Positions 4,615 to 20,014 of a DNA stretch of 21,917 nucleotides are shown here, one piece after another. Position numbers and translations under genes: made by a program. This stretch comes from a virus, in IMG/VR virus record IMGVR_UViG_3300018466_000013, positions 1 to 21,917 of that record, one strand, 5' to 3'. The notes under the pieces are model-generated. The model was not told the DNA's origin and did no database searches. It saw only the letters and a program-made list of their open reading frames with translations. Within the stretch, counting starts at the first letter, position 1; every line of letters starts with the position of its first letter.

Positions 4615-4619
4615 GATAG

Positions 4620-4645
4620 CCGATAATGCCTTCTAGGAGGTATTA
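4620..4645 (+). promoter_or_regulatory. CCGATAAT motif and SD hairpin
   Basis: CCGATAAT (4620-4627) follows the thioredoxin stop. TAATGCCT (4624-4631) can pair with AGGTATTA (4638-4645; one G-U pair) around a 6-nt loop, covering part of the AGGAGG SD of the next gene. Confidence 0.4.
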
Positions 4646-4647
4646 CT

Positions 4648-5085
4648 ATGACTATCAATATGGGTCCAGAGTTTCTGGAAACAGCTTTCGAGCTTGGGGA
4701 TGAAAGAATTCCTGTGAAGTATTCTATGCTTCACACTGCGATCATGCAAAAGATGTTAGAAGAAGCGAAAAACGTTCCAATGACGACAGCTAACTATATT
4801 CTTATTGAGCGTATTGCTACAAACTATATCATTATCAAGATGCGTGAAGCGGCAGGATTTGAAAACCTTAATCCAATCGCTCAGGACAAGCAGAATGTTT
4901 ATCTTCTTTCTGTCCTGGCACAATTCCAGAAGATGCTGGCAAAGGCTACTGCTCAAGAAGACCGTGAAGCTACTCTACGTGAAGTTAGAGATATTATTAA
5001 GAGAGTTCTTAGTACATCAAGCAGTCCAGCCAAAGCAGAATTACTTAATGATCTAGTAGAAGAGTTTAGAAAAGTAGGAATCTAA
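4648..5085 (+). CDS. Unknown helical protein (145 aa)
   Basis: I do not recognise it. It is almost wholly helical: a central region with TANYILIERIATNYIIIKMREAAGF split over two helices, then a charged helix LREVRDIIKRVL and a C-terminal helix. It has a strong AGGAGG SD, and its stop shares one base with the start of the next gene (TAATG). Its size and position some 1.1 kb before the large terminase would allow a small terminase subunit or a packaging helper, but no DNA-binding motif confirms this. Confidence 0.7.
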   Translation: MTINMGPEFLETAFELGDERIPVKYSMLHTAIMQKMLEEAKNVPMTTANYILIERIATNYIIIKMREAAGFENLNPIAQDKQNVYLLSVLAQFQKMLAKATAQEDREATLREVRDIIKRVLSTSSSPAKAELLNDLVEEFRKVGI

Positions 5086-5310: not shown

Positions 5311-5347
5311 AAAAACGCAACTCGACTTCGGTTGGGTTGCGTTTTTT
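5311..5347 (+). terminator. UUCG-capped terminator
   Basis: AAAAACGCAAC...GTTGCGTTTTT forms a 16-bp stem (5311-5326 with 5331-5346, including G-U pairs) closed by a TTCG tetraloop and ending in a T-run. It begins 2 nt after the upstream stop. A CCGATAAA motif follows at 5355. Confidence 0.95.
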
Positions 5348-8033: not shown

Positions 8034-8035
8034 AA

Positions 8036-8074
8036 TTCTCCTGCCGATAGCTTAAAAAGATGTCGGCAGGAGGA
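8036..8074 (+). promoter_or_regulatory. Hairpin hiding the portal SD
   Basis: CTCCTGCCGA (8038-8047) pairs perfectly with TCGGCAGGAG (8063-8072), plus a G-U pair and an A-U pair inward, around an 11-nt A-rich loop. The SD AGGAGG (8068-8073) lies wholly in the right arm. CCGATAG, a variant of the recurring motif, lies in the left arm and loop. No T-run follows, so a terminator is unlikely. Confidence 0.75.
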
Positions 8075-8079
8075 AACTA

Positions 8080-9930
8080 ATGGCAAGAGAAGATATGGCT
8101 ACACCTAAGCCCCGCTCCTTAGTGGAAATAGGTTTCAATGACAATATGCCTTTTACTGAACCTTATAAAGGCTCTCATCTTGTTTACAAGCATTCCGAAG
8201 TAACTGTTAAGCAATTAATAAGAATGCGTCGTACAGACGGACAGGCCCGCGCCTTGTACCGTCTTCTTACTTTACCTATTAGAGCAGCCCTACAAACTGC
8301 TACATTCGTTCCTGCTCAAATCGAGGAGGGAGGCGAAGAAGAGGCTGAGTTTATTGAGCAGTTATTCACACTGCCTCCTAATGCTGGTGGAATGAGTGTC
8401 CCACTAACCAGAATCATTGCTCAGATGCTTCAGGCTGTATTCGATGGGTTTTCTCCGTTTGAAATGGTTTATTGGCAACCTAAGACTGGGCCACTTAAAG
8501 GTAAGTGGACTCTCAAGAAGCTTAATTATCTGCCAGCCGACACTGTAAAATTCTTGGTAACTAAAGACGGTAGCTTTGATGGATTCCGTCAGGTTACTCA
8601 CCGTCCCGGTGGAGAGATTATTGATGTTAAGATTCCTAGAAATTCTTGTGTATATTATGCCGCCCAAGAGGAAGAAAACAAGTTCTATGGCCTTAGCTAT
8701 TTTGAAGCAGCATTTTATCACTTTGATAAAAAGGTAAAACTTTACTATTTGATGCACCTGGCAGCACAGCGCTCTGCTGTTGGTACTCGTGTTGGTACTA
8801 TTCCTGAAGACCATGATGACAATGAAAAGGTTGCATTCCAGATGGGTCTATCTGACCTTGGTGTAGCTCAGTGGATGACGAAACCTGAAAATTACCTTGT
8901 GGAATTGCTGAAGGAAGGTGGAAGTTTCGACTTCCTGTCTTACATTAATCACCACAACTCTCAGATGTCTAAGTCTATTTTGGCAGCATTCTTTGATGAG
9001 AACCAAGGAACTGGTGGAGACGCGTCTCTAGTTGACTTCGGCAAGCAGACTGACTCATTGTTCGTTATGATGCTTCAGACTATTATGACAGAAATTGCTT
9101 CTATCATAAATCACTACATCATTCCTCGCTTCATTGATTGGAATTTCAAGTCAGGTAAGTATCCTGAATTCCGCTGGGGTCCATTCACTGATGATGATAA
9201 GAATGCCATTCAGGAAGTATTCACAGCTCTTGCAGGTATTCAAGGTGGAAACTTTACACCAGAATTTTTCCGCGAGACTGAAAAGAAGATGGCAGATAAG
9301 TTCGGCCTAGAAATCGATTATGAGACTATTGAAAAAGAAGAAGAGGCACTTAAGACTGCTGAAGCTGTAGCGCCTACAGGAGAAGTATCTGCCGATGGTG
9401 AAATCTCTCCCGATAATACTATTCCTACAGATATGCTTCCAGAAGGCTTTACATTAAGTCATTTACTGGATATGGGGTTTGTGTTAGCTACAGAGTTTGG
9501 TGACAAGCCGGAAGATGATAAATTGGTCATCGAGTTAGCAGGACAGAGAAAAGTTCTGACTCAAGAAGGTGTTCGTCGTTATGGGCTGCCTATTGGTACT
9601 CCATTAGGCACAGGAGTTAAGCCTGGCAATACTAAGCCTAAGAATAATCCTAATGACACTCCTGCCGCAGGTACTATTCATAAATCTAGTGATCCTCGCG
9701 TCAGCCAAGGATCAGATGCCAAGAATAAGGGAGAAGGTAATACTGGATCAGCGGCTGTACTAAGGTTACTATCAAATCCTAAGTTGCCAGGTGTTAAACT
9801 ATTAGTTTATGCAGACGGTACTGTTCAATTCCAATTCGGGGATGGTACTAAATCAAATCGCCAAGAATTTGACTGGAAGAAGTTCCAGGAGAAGGGCTGG
9901 GGAGTAAATAAGGGTGAGAAACTAAAATGA
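8080..9930 (+). CDS. Portal protein
   Basis: A 616-residue protein. The N-terminal half fits the DUF935-like portal group: MRRTDGQARALYRLLTLPI (about 50-68), DGFSPFEMVYW (about 126-136), NKFYGLSYFEAAFYHFDK, and IIPRFIDWNF followed by FRWGPF (about 348-370). Twelve copies should form the ring through which DNA passes. The clip and crown region is followed by an unusual C-terminal extension (about 430-616), with a Gly/Pro/Asn-rich linker and a final strand-rich piece near VKLLVYADGTVQFQFGDG. Position after terminase and before the protease is standard. The next gene overlaps by 4 nt. Confidence 0.88.
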   Translation: MAREDMATPKPRSLVEIGFNDNMPFTEPYKGSHLVYKHSEVTVKQLIRMRRTDGQARALYRLLTLPIRAALQTATFVPAQIEEGGEEEAEFIEQLFTLPPNAGGMSVPLTRIIAQMLQAVFDGFSPFEMVYWQPKTGPLKGKWTLKKLNYLPADTVKFLVTKDGSFDGFRQVTHRPGGEIIDVKIPRNSCVYYAAQEEENKFYGLSYFEAAFYHFDKKVKLYYLMHLAAQRSAVGTRVGTIPEDHDDNEKVAFQMGLSDLGVAQWMTKPENYLVELLKEGGSFDFLSYINHHNSQMSKSILAAFFDENQGTGGDASLVDFGKQTDSLFVMMLQTIMTEIASIINHYIIPRFIDWNFKSGKYPEFRWGPFTDDDKNAIQEVFTALAGIQGGNFTPEFFRETEKKMADKFGLEIDYETIEKEEEALKTAEAVAPTGEVSADGEISPDNTIPTDMLPEGFTLSHLLDMGFVLATEFGDKPEDDKLVIELAGQRKVLTQEGVRRYGLPIGTPLGTGVKPGNTKPKNNPNDTPAAGTIHKSSDPRVSQGSDAKNKGEGNTGSAAVLRLLSNPKLPGVKLLVYADGTVQFQFGDGTKSNRQEFDWKKFQEKGWGVNKGEKLK

Positions 9931-13736: not shown

Positions 13737-13753
13737 AATTAAATAGCTTTACC

Positions 13754-13787
13754 AAGAAGGCCTCTGACTTGCGTCGGGGGCCTTCTT
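13754..13787 (+). terminator. Hairpin terminator after major capsid gene
   Basis: AAGAAGGCC (13754-13762) and GGCCTTCTT (13779-13787) are perfectly paired. The six bases inside pair too (with G-U) around a TTGC loop, giving a 15-bp stem. The following T-run is weak, so termination may be partial, or the hairpin may protect the capsid mRNA 3' end. Confidence 0.7.
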
Positions 13788-13816
13788 GCTGTAGTATTGT
13801 ACTTGTCCTGCACATA

Positions 13817-17336: not shown

Positions 17337-17753
17337 ATGAGACACTTATTTTCATCTACAGTAGAAATTCTGGTAGCTACAACAAGTATTGTTGAGGGCG
17401 CTAGAGTACAAGCATGGGAAAAATCTACAGCTGTCTTTGATCCAACTTGTGCTCCTGGAGAAATGAAATGTAGGTTGGATCTCATCTTCCTGCGTCCTGG
17501 AAAAGATGCTCCGGCACCTATTGTTGCAGGAAGGTCCCCTGATAGAACTGGAGTTCTATTATGCAGTAATACTCCATCATTGCAGGGCGGCCAGATTGTA
17601 AAGGTCATTAGTGGCGCACATCTTGGTGCTATGTTTTTACTAAAGATGCGACCTGATGAGGCGCAAGGTTTTTCTGGATCACATCATATTGAAGTACAGA
17701 TCCATGAAGTAAACCAAGCAGGATTCGCTTATCCTTCGGGAGCCGTAACATGA
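17337..17753 (+). CDS. Head-tail stopper (head closure) protein
   Basis: A 138-residue strand-rich protein: STVEILVATTSIVEGARVQAW at the start, CRLDLIFLRPGKDAP in the middle and GGQIVKVISGAHLGAMFLL, then HHIEVQIHEV at the end. The beta-barrel layout and the place second in the connector cluster fit a closure protein that stops DNA leaking before the tail joins. GGAGA precedes the ATG, and the next gene overlaps by 4 nt. Family assignment is mostly from gene order. Confidence 0.65.
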   Translation: MRHLFSSTVEILVATTSIVEGARVQAWEKSTAVFDPTCAPGEMKCRLDLIFLRPGKDAPAPIVAGRSPDRTGVLLCSNTPSLQGGQIVKVISGAHLGAMFLLKMRPDEAQGFSGSHHIEVQIHEVNQAGFAYPSGAVT

Positions 17754-18115
17754 TAAGAGTAGAAAGATATATAGCTGGAATTGATACTGAAGTTAACCGT
17801 CTGGCCGCTGGTCCGACGAGCGCAGATCTACTTGCCTTCGAAGTAGTTCTAGAGGACCAGTTCAGGGCCACTCAGGCAGCCGTACACGTTATTACTAGAT
17901 CTCTTAAGGGTTCAGGTAGGTCCGAGTTTAAGATGGACAATAATTCCTGGGTTGGTGATATTACTTATGGTGGTCCATCACCAGGATTTATTCATAACCC
18001 AGTAGATTATGCTGAGTTTGAACGTGAAAGAGACGGTGCTCACGATTTCCTTGAGCCAGCAGAAAGATTGAGTGACGGGTACATTCAGGCGATGACAGAA
18101 TTCTTGGAGGGTTGA
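17750..18115 (+). CDS. Neck / HK97 gp10-like connector protein
   Basis: A 121-residue protein that starts inside the previous stop (ATGA). An N-terminal helix (LLAFEVVLEDQFRATQAAVHV) leads into a strand region SWVGDITYGGPSPGFIHNPVDYAEFERERDG and a final helix. GFIHNPVDYAEFERERD is the hallmark of gp10-like neck/tail-completion proteins (G-P/H-N-P-V-Y-A-x-x-E). It acts between the stopper and the tail terminator. Confidence 0.75.
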   Translation: MIRVERYIAGIDTEVNRLAAGPTSADLLAFEVVLEDQFRATQAAVHVITRSLKGSGRSEFKMDNNSWVGDITYGGPSPGFIHNPVDYAEFERERDGAHDFLEPAERLSDGYIQAMTEFLEG

Positions 18116-18117
18116 TA

Positions 18118-18591
18118 ATGGCTGAAACGATTCAAAGAGCAGCGGTCAACTACCTTCTGACTTTACCTGAAGTTACTGCATCAGTAGGAAGCAATGATGA
18201 AGGACCTTTCATCTATCGTAATGAAATCATTGTCAATCTTGAAGACAATCAATATTCTGCTGTCAGCGCTATTGTTGTTGAAGACGGTGGACCATTAGCA
18301 GTTAATTCCTTGACTAGGTTTCGAGCTAGACGACTTCGTGTCACTATTTGGGCTAATGGTATTAGAGATGCTATAGGTAATCTTACTCAGCCTGCGACAG
18401 TGCCAGAAAAGATCAATGATACGTTCATTGTATTGGATAAGTTCCTACATCGTACAGATCCTGAACCTGTTATGTGGAGTACTATTAAGACCATCAGTTC
18501 TGACAGAATTGGGGATTTGAGTGCCCCTGTATCTGTTATTGATGGCGATGGAATTCAGATTGCTACTGTAAACTACTCAGTATTATTCTAA
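18118..18591 (+). CDS. Tail terminator protein
   Basis: A 157-residue protein from ATG 18118, chosen because GGAGG lies 7 nt upstream; a TTG at 18112 would sit on the SD. It opens with a helix IQRAAVNYLLTLPEVTA and continues with the strands VSAIVVEDGG, RLRVTIWANG, a helix VPEKINDTFIVLDKFLH and VNYSVLF at the C-terminus. This is the alpha/beta layout of lambda gpU-like terminators that cap the tail tube and join it to the neck. It is followed by the CCGATAAT hairpin and the glycosyltransferase. Confidence 0.72.
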   Translation: MAETIQRAAVNYLLTLPEVTASVGSNDEGPFIYRNEIIVNLEDNQYSAVSAIVVEDGGPLAVNSLTRFRARRLRVTIWANGIRDAIGNLTQPATVPEKINDTFIVLDKFLHRTDPEPVMWSTIKTISSDRIGDLSAPVSVIDGDGIQIATVNYSVLF

Positions 18592-18592
18592 C

Positions 18593-18648
18593 CGATAATA
18601 CCTTTAGCTAACCAGATCCCAGGAGGATAAATGCTAAAGGTATTATTG
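18593..18648 (+). promoter_or_regulatory. 14-bp hairpin across glycosyltransferase start
   Basis: ATAATACCTTTAGC (18595-18608) pairs perfectly with GCTAAAGGTATTAT (18633-18646), plus a G-U and a C-G pair outside. The 24-nt loop holds the SD AGGAGG (18621-18626). The right arm begins at the G of the ATG and covers codons 2-6. The left arm overlaps the recurring CCGATAAT. Confidence 0.8.
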
Positions 18649-19752
18649 AAGGCCCCTATGAGTGTTTACTCAGGGTATGGCAATGACGGCATTGGTATTG
18701 CCCGAGCCTTTATGAACAGTGGCGCTGATGTTTATCTTCAGCCTTCACACGTGGATGCTCCGCTTCCAGAAGATATTGCTATGCTTCTGACTAAGCGTCT
18801 TGTAGCTCCATTTGATTTGATGATTCATCATGTAGATCCAGCACAACTCGGTCTACTGAATGAAGAGCGTAGAGGCTCTAAAGTTACAGTTGCTTGGACT
18901 ATGTGGGAATATACCTCTTTAAATAATCTTAAAGGTAGATCCAAATTAAAAAAGGCACTAACAAACTATGATTTGGTGCTGGGATATGATCAAGTTACTG
19001 CTGATTGTTTTAGACCTTATGCAGGACCTAAAACATCTGTAGGTGTACTTCAAGGTGGATACCTTCCTGATAACTGGACTAAAGTAGAAAAAGACTGGCA
19101 CAGTAAGCGATTCGGTTTTGCTATGTGTGGAGTTCTGTCTGACAGAAAAGATCCGTTTGTGACTATCATGGCATTCAAAGAACTCAAGGAAGAGTATCCT
19201 GAAGAGTTTGAACCTGCCGAACTTCATCTTAAGACTACTGCCCCAGGACTACATTCAGCTATGGAGCAGTGGGTACCTAAATTAAGAGTTCACTACGACT
19301 CATGGCCAGAAGATGTCCTAAAAGAATTTTATTCTGTTCAGCATGTATTGTGTGCTCCTTCTCGTGGAGAAGGTAAAAATATGCCTGCATTAGAGTTTCA
19401 GTCAATGGGTGGAGCAGTTATTGCTACTAATTGGGGCGGTCATACTGGATGGCTATCTCCAGAGTATGCCTATCCTCTAGATTACAAACTAATGCCCCTA
19501 GACGGAAATCCTAGAGTATCTAATGCTAGAGCCGATAAGGATCATATGAAGGCTCTTATGCTTCACACTTTCCGCAATCGAGATGAGGTCAAGGCTAAGG
19601 CTAATTTAGCCTCACAAATTATTCCTCAGACAATGAGCTGGGACACTAAGATTAATCATCTTTACCGAAAGGTATCTGAACTAGTACCAGGCAAAGGTAC
19701 CGAAATTTTACATAAGGCACTAATGTCAGGAGCTAACAATGAGAGCTTTTAG
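18631..19752 (+). CDS. GT-B glycosyltransferase (GT4-like)
   Basis: A 373-residue protein. The N-terminal Rossmann part opens with KAPMSVYSGYGNDGIGIARAF (seen here as SGYG followed by an acceptor helix). The C-terminal sugar-nucleotide domain has a CGVLSDRKDP strand near 166-175 and APSRGEGKNMPALEFQSMGG, where Glu247 and Glu255 form the GT4 E-x7-E motif. It should transfer a sugar from a nucleotide donor in the cytoplasm. It sits between the tail-terminator and tail-tube genes, so a tail or other virion protein is a reasonable acceptor. Fold and motifs differ from the two GT-A enzymes at 725-2142. The next gene overlaps by 14 nt. Confidence 0.82.
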   Translation: MLKVLLKAPMSVYSGYGNDGIGIARAFMNSGADVYLQPSHVDAPLPEDIAMLLTKRLVAPFDLMIHHVDPAQLGLLNEERRGSKVTVAWTMWEYTSLNNLKGRSKLKKALTNYDLVLGYDQVTADCFRPYAGPKTSVGVLQGGYLPDNWTKVEKDWHSKRFGFAMCGVLSDRKDPFVTIMAFKELKEEYPEEFEPAELHLKTTAPGLHSAMEQWVPKLRVHYDSWPEDVLKEFYSVQHVLCAPSRGEGKNMPALEFQSMGGAVIATNWGGHTGWLSPEYAYPLDYKLMPLDGNPRVSNARADKDHMKALMLHTFRNRDEVKAKANLASQIIPQTMSWDTKINHLYRKVSELVPGKGTEILHKALMSGANNESF

Positions 19753-20014
19753 AAAACAGGATGGCACCCTAGTCTATTCAGATAGAGATCCAGCTTGGGT
19801 AAAAGATGGTATTGAAATCAGATGTCCAGGTAAATTCAATAAACTGTTCTTGATTCTCAGAGTAGAGCATATGCCACAGCCAGGTACATACATGGAGATA
19901 GCTTGTGCAGATTGTGCTAAGTGGGCTAGAGAAAATGGAGCCCCTGGTGCAAGGCGATTCTTACATTATTATGATACTTCAGGTAAGTGCGTGTATAACA
20001 AGGTAACAGTTTAA
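19739..20014 (+). CDS. Small Com-like zinc-ribbon protein (91 aa)
   Basis: A 91-residue protein that overlaps the glycosyltransferase by 14 nt, with AGGAG 6 nt upstream. IEIRCPGKFNKLF followed by YMEIACADCAKW resembles the two halves of a Mu Com-type ribbon (IRC..CNKL ... EIxCxxC). The first knuckle has lost its second Cys (CPGK), while the second (CADC) is intact, with a late Cys near VYN. RRFLHYYDTSG follows. Com is a translation activator in Mu. Here an RNA-binding role is only a hypothesis, although this genome shows unusual start-site hairpins. Confidence 0.6.
   Translation: MRAFRKQDGTLVYSDRDPAWVKDGIEIRCPGKFNKLFLILRVEHMPQPGTYMEIACADCAKWARENGAPGARRFLHYYDTSGKCVYNKVTV

Follow-up and report, generated by a model that had tools for sequence, protein, structure and literature searches.

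The start-site hairpin of the glycosyltransferase (GT) gene examined here is real, and its 5' arm carries a sequence resembling the -10 element of promoters used by FliA- and WhiG-type sigma factors. We put the probability at roughly two in three that the two form a switch of the type known from T4 gene e, run by a FliA/WhiG-like sigma factor of the phage. The hairpin would then act as a translation lock, with the gene's own late promoter held in its 5' arm. Messenger RNA reading through from upstream would have both arms, fold, and bury the GT start codon together with the context of its Shine-Dalgarno (SD) sequence, and 30S subunits would be unable to load efficiently onto this folded form. 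RNA polymerase carrying the phage FliA/WhiG-like sigma factor would start at the ACCGATAA promoter and produce a short, translated transcript with its 5' end at about 18604-18606, close to where the left arm ends on the loop side. The purpose of such a lock may be to keep the GT from being expressed early or to uncouple GT dosage from the upstream operon.

Results and discussion

The start-site hairpin of the glycosyltransferase gene

The window analyzed, a 21.9-kb tailed-phage genome fragment from IMG/VR, encodes the GT between the genes for the tail terminator and the major tail protein (Table 1). This gene order matches that of Microbacterium phage Magritte and, apart from some differences in annotation, those of the Arthrobacter phages Kitkat and DanielleIgnace. 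As the cultured relatives of the GT and portal proteins point in that direction, the host of this phage group is probably an actinobacterium; Bacillus phages, among others, are matched by the portal as well. A conserved 91-aa protein (phrog_31736, 19739-20014) with a single Cys (RCPGK), then CADC, and without a Pfam match is encoded between the GT and the major tail protein.

Table 1. Positions of the features discussed in the text
Feature	Position	Strand	Remark
Upstream gene, tail terminator	18112..18591	+	Synteny with Magritte and Kitkat
TAAA, possible -35	18569..18572	+	Weak; spaced 18 nt from the -10 and missing in several relatives
ACCGATAA, proposed -10 of a sigma-28/WhiG-type late promoter	18591..18598	+	In the left arm
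Left (5') arm of the start-site hairpin	18593..18608	+	Partner of 18633-18648
Predicted transcript start	18604..18606	+	-10 octamer plus 6 bp, the distance known from E. coli aer
Inner mini-hairpin AUCC-CAGGA-GGAU	18616..18628	+	Pairs part of the GT SD
SD AGGAGG	18621..18626	+	In the 24-nt hairpin loop
GT gene (phrog_2170, Glyco_trans_1_4)	18631..19752	+	Proposed to be gated by the hairpin
Right (3') arm	18633..18648	+	Begins with the last base of the ATG and covers GT codons 2-6
Second example, SD-pairing hairpin at the portal gene	8034..8073	+	Portal start at 8080
Portal -10-like GCCGATAG	8043-8050	+	In the left arm
Portal SD AGGAGG	8068-8073	+	In the right arm
Third example, GCCGATAA (4619-4626)	4619..4648	+	Arm directly following it pairs the SD of the gene at 4648

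Exact complementarity extends over 14 pairs, between 18595-18608 (ATAATACCTTTAGC) and 18633-18646 (GCTAAAGGTATTAT), which bears out the claim of an earlier sequence-only reading that the arms are exactly complementary; one G-U pair (18594/18647) and one C-G pair (18593/18648) lengthen the stem to 16. The 24-nt loop (18609-18632) contains AGGAGG and the first two bases of the ATG at 18631, and the right arm consists of the first codons of the gene, just as that reading had placed them. Its view that a 14-bp stem is improbable by chance also agrees with our counts, since the window contains no other perfect 14-bp inverted repeat whose loop measures 3-60 nt, and Markov-shuffled windows contained a mean of 0.025 such repeats (at least one in 4 of 200). 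The fold lies 4.6 sd below dinucleotide shuffles. When codons 2-8 were recoded synonymously, 0.7% of the recodings of the window were equally stable, as were 0.2-4.3% across nine sequences (the window and the close relatives described below); the choice of these codons favors the stability of the RNA hairpin in every one of the nine. Classification of the hairpin as a known RNA family or a terminator was rejected, as no Rfam 15 family matched the window above its gathering score and no intrinsic terminator, defined by a GC-rich stem followed by a T run, was found in 18400-18800.

Conservation and covariation

Close relatives of the GT in IMG/VR provided 8 further distinct sequences with 75-83% amino-acid identity, giving nine with the window, while no relatives were found in bacterial or archaeal genomes and no nucleotide match was found among cultured phages. 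The stem occurs at the same position in all nine sequences, mostly with 12-18 pairs. Paired cells make up 93.8% in alignment A3, against 32-51% after a slide by 1-3 columns. The search for compensatory arm changes in related phages, which had been proposed as a check on the hairpin, gave a positive outcome, and the hairpin withstood the refutation test set by the sequence-only reading (arms that mutate without compensation): 6 pairs (9 cells) are altered on both sides, compared with shuffled means of 1.6 and 1.7, and none of 500 shuffles was as high as observed, with the reservation that the relatives are not independent and the counts thus overstate the number of events. At least three lineages have compensations of their own at the GT. 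The stem of L089 has 18 pairs, three of them swapped (C-G to U-A, U-A to C-G, and G-C to A-U); that of L088 has 15 pairs and is largely rebuilt; and L087, in which the start codon is shifted, has 16 pairs including four G·U and one A-U to G-C swap. The stem of L005 is weaker, with two inner mismatches. The inner AUCC/GGAU helix is nearly invariant and therefore yields no covariation evidence of its own.

Covariation alone cannot separate pairing in RNA from pairing in DNA, and one arm contains a promoter-like motif, so that the inverted repeat might instead be an operator or other DNA site with the RNA hairpin as an incidental product. We regard this as very unlikely, given that one-sided changes among the inner pairs mostly produce G-U wobbles (six cells) and less often non-pairs (three cells), that the spacing between the arms ranges from 21 to 33 nt among the relatives, that the arm sequences are not conserved as expected of a dimer site, and that the GT codon choice favors RNA stability.

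The hairpin is specific to this gene. Six of these genomes yielded 458 gene starts with an SD; ranked by the length of the SD-enclosing stem, the six GT copies came first, and a hairpin common to all gene starts was rejected because the GT copies are the top outliers. A covariance model found one strong site per genome, at the GT only, by which a dispersed repeat or mobile element was likewise rejected. Presence of the hairpin in every GT relative was rejected as well, since distant, mostly GC-rich relatives (≤67% amino-acid identity) and Magritte are without it; both the long stem and the CCGAT motif are missing at their GT genes. The suggestion of the sequence-only reading that the hairpin gates the start of translation is thus well supported, by the compensatory changes, the biased codon choice, and the uniqueness among gene starts. 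Instead of the long stem, four of the distant relatives (L045, L047, L057, and L063) have small SD hairpins immediately before the GT start, for example GACC-CAAGGA-GGUC, and these are possibly an older form of the inner AUCC/GGAU helix.

The extent to which the stem has been rewritten also bears on the proposal that a phage RNA-binding protein opens or locks the hairpin. In phage Mu, Com opens mom by binding, and Com has a zinc-finger domain and a CxxC motif. The two systems would share the use of a start-site hairpin of a phage gene for translational control, which is predicted here, and the sequence-only reading had suggested a Com-like protein encoded just downstream. The 91-aa ORF is small, Cys-containing, and conserved downstream in all relatives examined. 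It has no Pfam match even at E = 10, however, and its close relatives keep a single Cys; by Pfam there is no Com homologue, and the stem, freely rewritten between relatives, offers no conserved binding sequence, its one kept part (CCGAT) being explained by the genome-wide motif described below. With neither a family match nor a conserved stem sequence, Com-like binding was rejected, and an operator of this kind has in our estimate only a slight chance of being correct. Some factor could nevertheless bind GATCCCAGGAGGAT, which is conserved in the loop.

A promoter-like motif in the left arm

The sequence-only reading overlooked both a promoter-like -10 element in the left arm and a matching hairpin at the portal gene. 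The element at the GT, ACCGATAA, is a copy of RCCGATA, the most over-represented intergenic motif in these phages. Counting 6-mers de novo in 231 same-strand gaps put CCGATA (27 occurrences versus 2.5 expected, 7 antisense) and GCCGAT (23 versus 3.2 expected, 2 antisense) at the top, ahead of AGGAGG. Across relatives, RCCGAT recurs in the gaps before the portal, prohead protease, GT, and major tail protein genes. Most of its sites share the strand of the structural genes, and in the relative G004 (136 kb) hardly any occur between about 22 and 88 kb. Alignment of 40 sites gave the consensus RCCGATAAT, in which purines peak at offsets +15/+16. The -35 region shows no more than a weak T.A (-22 to -20), and the TAAA located 18 nt upstream of the -10 in the window is absent in several relatives.

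The E. coli FliA promoter has the form TAAAGTTT-n11-GCCGATAA, and transcription of aer starts 6 bp beyond the -10 octamer (PMC2859248); the elements of WhiG promoters are TAAA and GCCGATAA (PMC8325347). Both RCCGATAAT and the GT site agree with this -10 sequence, so that the phage motif shares its -10, RCCGATAA, with the promoters of FliA, sigma-D, and WhiG (sigma-28). It differs from FliA promoters in a weak -35 and an apparent spacing of 18 nt where FliA has about 15-16, and from FliA and WhiG promoters in preceding phage structural genes. From these similarities we infer that the motif is a promoter used by a FliA/WhiG-like sigma factor of the phage. A host sigma-70 promoter was rejected, as no match to one was found at the GT site. 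The putative -10 element in the left arm probably decides whether the GT hairpin can form.

A candidate sigma factor in related phages

Reading the motif as a FliA/WhiG -10 leads to the prediction of a FliA/WhiG-type sigma factor. A sigma-70-family factor is encoded by the relatives G001-G004 and G006-G008 and by phage Magritte; the gene was not found in the window, which is a fragment, or in the G005 record. The six proteins that were read out have 228-248 aa, and their genes follow a helicase gene (L131 1261-2007, which is Magritte gp47, and L133, L134, L135, L136, and L138). Magritte gp47 is annotated only as 'DNA binding protein'. For all six, the best family is FliA_WhiG (TIGR02479; E 3.6e-14 to 9e-34), with scores of 53-117 bits that are all below the NCBIfam curated cut-off of 189.6, and we therefore call them FliA/WhiG-like instead of filing them as family members. 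The best solved structures for the two proteins compared were those of WhiG (6pfv, 6pfj) and FliA (6pmi, 1rp3). Shared with FliA is the block RIRG...D..R..DW..R, with which the invariant residues D81, R84, D87, and R91 align. In FliA, we take D81, R84, and R91 to be determinants of -10 recognition, a role for which a literature search returned nothing.

Like T4 gp55, SPO1 gp28, and the sigma factor of phiEco32/7-11, which belong to other branches of the sigma family, the phage-made factor likely guides the RNA polymerase of the host to late genes. This placement of phage late sigma factors in other branches is supported in part by PMC8948821. A literature search of partial coverage found no phage late sigma factor of the FliA/WhiG type. 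Together, these results give the phage group a putative motif for late promoters and a candidate for its late sigma factor.

Predicted read-through and short transcripts

A transcript starting at 18604-18606 would keep 3-5 of the 16 left-arm bases, and in transcripts computed from 18605 on the stem no longer folds. Because the predicted start is near the inner end of the left arm, short transcripts would lose the stem, and because this loss depends on the start site, translation of the GT would be tied to the promoter used. Opening the GT start region between the SD and +16 is predicted to cost 20.3 kcal/mol in the read-through RNA versus 8.0 kcal/mol in the short RNA. At the portal gene, the same cost falls from 20.4 to 5.0 kcal/mol. 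There, a 14-bp hairpin pairs the SD itself (CTCCTGCCGATA...TCGGCAGGAGG), and this layout is kept in at least 7 distinct portal sequences.

When all starts were compared, a drop of at least 8 kcal/mol in the short transcript was predicted for 14 of 38 starts with the motif versus 1 of 103 without, an association to which the GT and portal homologues, counted in several genomes, contribute much. Other families also occur in these counts, with the gene at 4648 of the window and those at 17644 and 96215 of G004. The major tail protein and prohead protease genes have the motif without such a hairpin; with motif-bearing late genes of this kind, the placement of a promoter within a hairpin is not a general rule.

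The main rival to the promoter switch is translational coupling, because in each of the nine sequences about 1-11 nt separate the upstream stop codon from the stem. In the window, the TAA of the tail terminator gene (18589-18591) abuts the hairpin, and the stop codon of the terminase gene likewise adjoins the portal hairpin. With a stop codon right at the stem, terminating ribosomes could open it, and those finishing the tail terminator would melt the outer stem and make GT synthesis proportional to that of the upstream protein. Coupling nevertheless leaves unexplained why the left arm contains a motif found throughout these phages and why motif-bearing starts are enriched in occluding hairpins, also among comparable gaps (gaps of at least 30 nt; a drop of at least 8 kcal/mol in 10 of 25 motif starts versus 1 of 69 without). 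As the explanation of the hairpin we consider it unlikely, and coupling and the promoter switch can coexist on read-through mRNA.

A GT message without the left arm could also arise if the 16-bp stem were cut by an RNase III-type enzyme, or the stem could be an element of mRNA stability. Typical RNase III sites are longer than a 16-bp stem, the -10 motif would be left unexplained, and so would the portal hairpin, in which a cut would run through the SD. We regard processing or stabilization as very unlikely.

Comparison with T4 gene e

The part of PMC3014915 that deals with such genes in T4 describes gene e, and also soc, gene 49, and I-TevI, as having the SD and/or the start in a helix on long early transcripts. 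There, the 5' strand of this inhibitory helix is encoded by DNA that also contains a late promoter, and late transcripts, which start inside that strand, are without it. Features that may correspond are found in the phages described here. Occlusion of the GT SD and start in read-through mRNA is predicted (20.3 kcal/mol) and accompanied by covariation in nine sequences, and the 5' arm contains a sequence motif, putatively of the late-promoter type, that is enriched genome-wide. By analogy, the layout looks like an independent version of the T4 lysozyme switch. It differs in the phage lineage and the genes concerned (glycosyltransferase and portal), in the promoter class, which is GCCGATAA here and TATAAATA in T4, and in the GT SD and start being in the loop of a long stem; the layout here is known from sequence. 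If true, the gene e design, documented so far, in the literature covered, in T4-related phages, would also occur in a lineage unrelated to them, under another class of sigma factor and in front of structural genes instead of lysis or homing genes.

A broader proposal is that late genes in this clade of uncultured phages are transcribed with a FliA/WhiG-like sigma factor encoded by the phages themselves, and that promoters of this factor are embedded in the 5' arms of several start-site hairpins (at the portal, the GT, and at least 1-2 more genes), such that chosen late genes would be translatable only from messages started by this factor, through an independently evolved lock resembling that of T4 gene e. 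We judge the odds of this proposal to be about even.

Further promoter-like and terminator-like sites

In Magritte (L152), the motif G(C/T)CGATATCCCTG is located at 5338, 18359, and 21964, and intergenically near 29541 and 43605; before Magritte late genes, it is likely a promoter motif of the same class. As Magritte is cultured, on Microbacterium foliorum, and has both the sigma gene and this similar late motif, it provides a laboratory route to part of the model. At about 28400-28425 of G001 (L125), a terminator-like palindrome contains an ACCGAT box on both strands, such that a promoter-like box is inside a terminator-like hairpin, and a similar case precedes the gene at 54540 of G003. In the window itself, terminator-like inverted repeats directly follow genes at 5311-5346 and 13753-13788, and the first of these is followed at once by ACCGATAA (5354), in a terminator-then-promoter layout.
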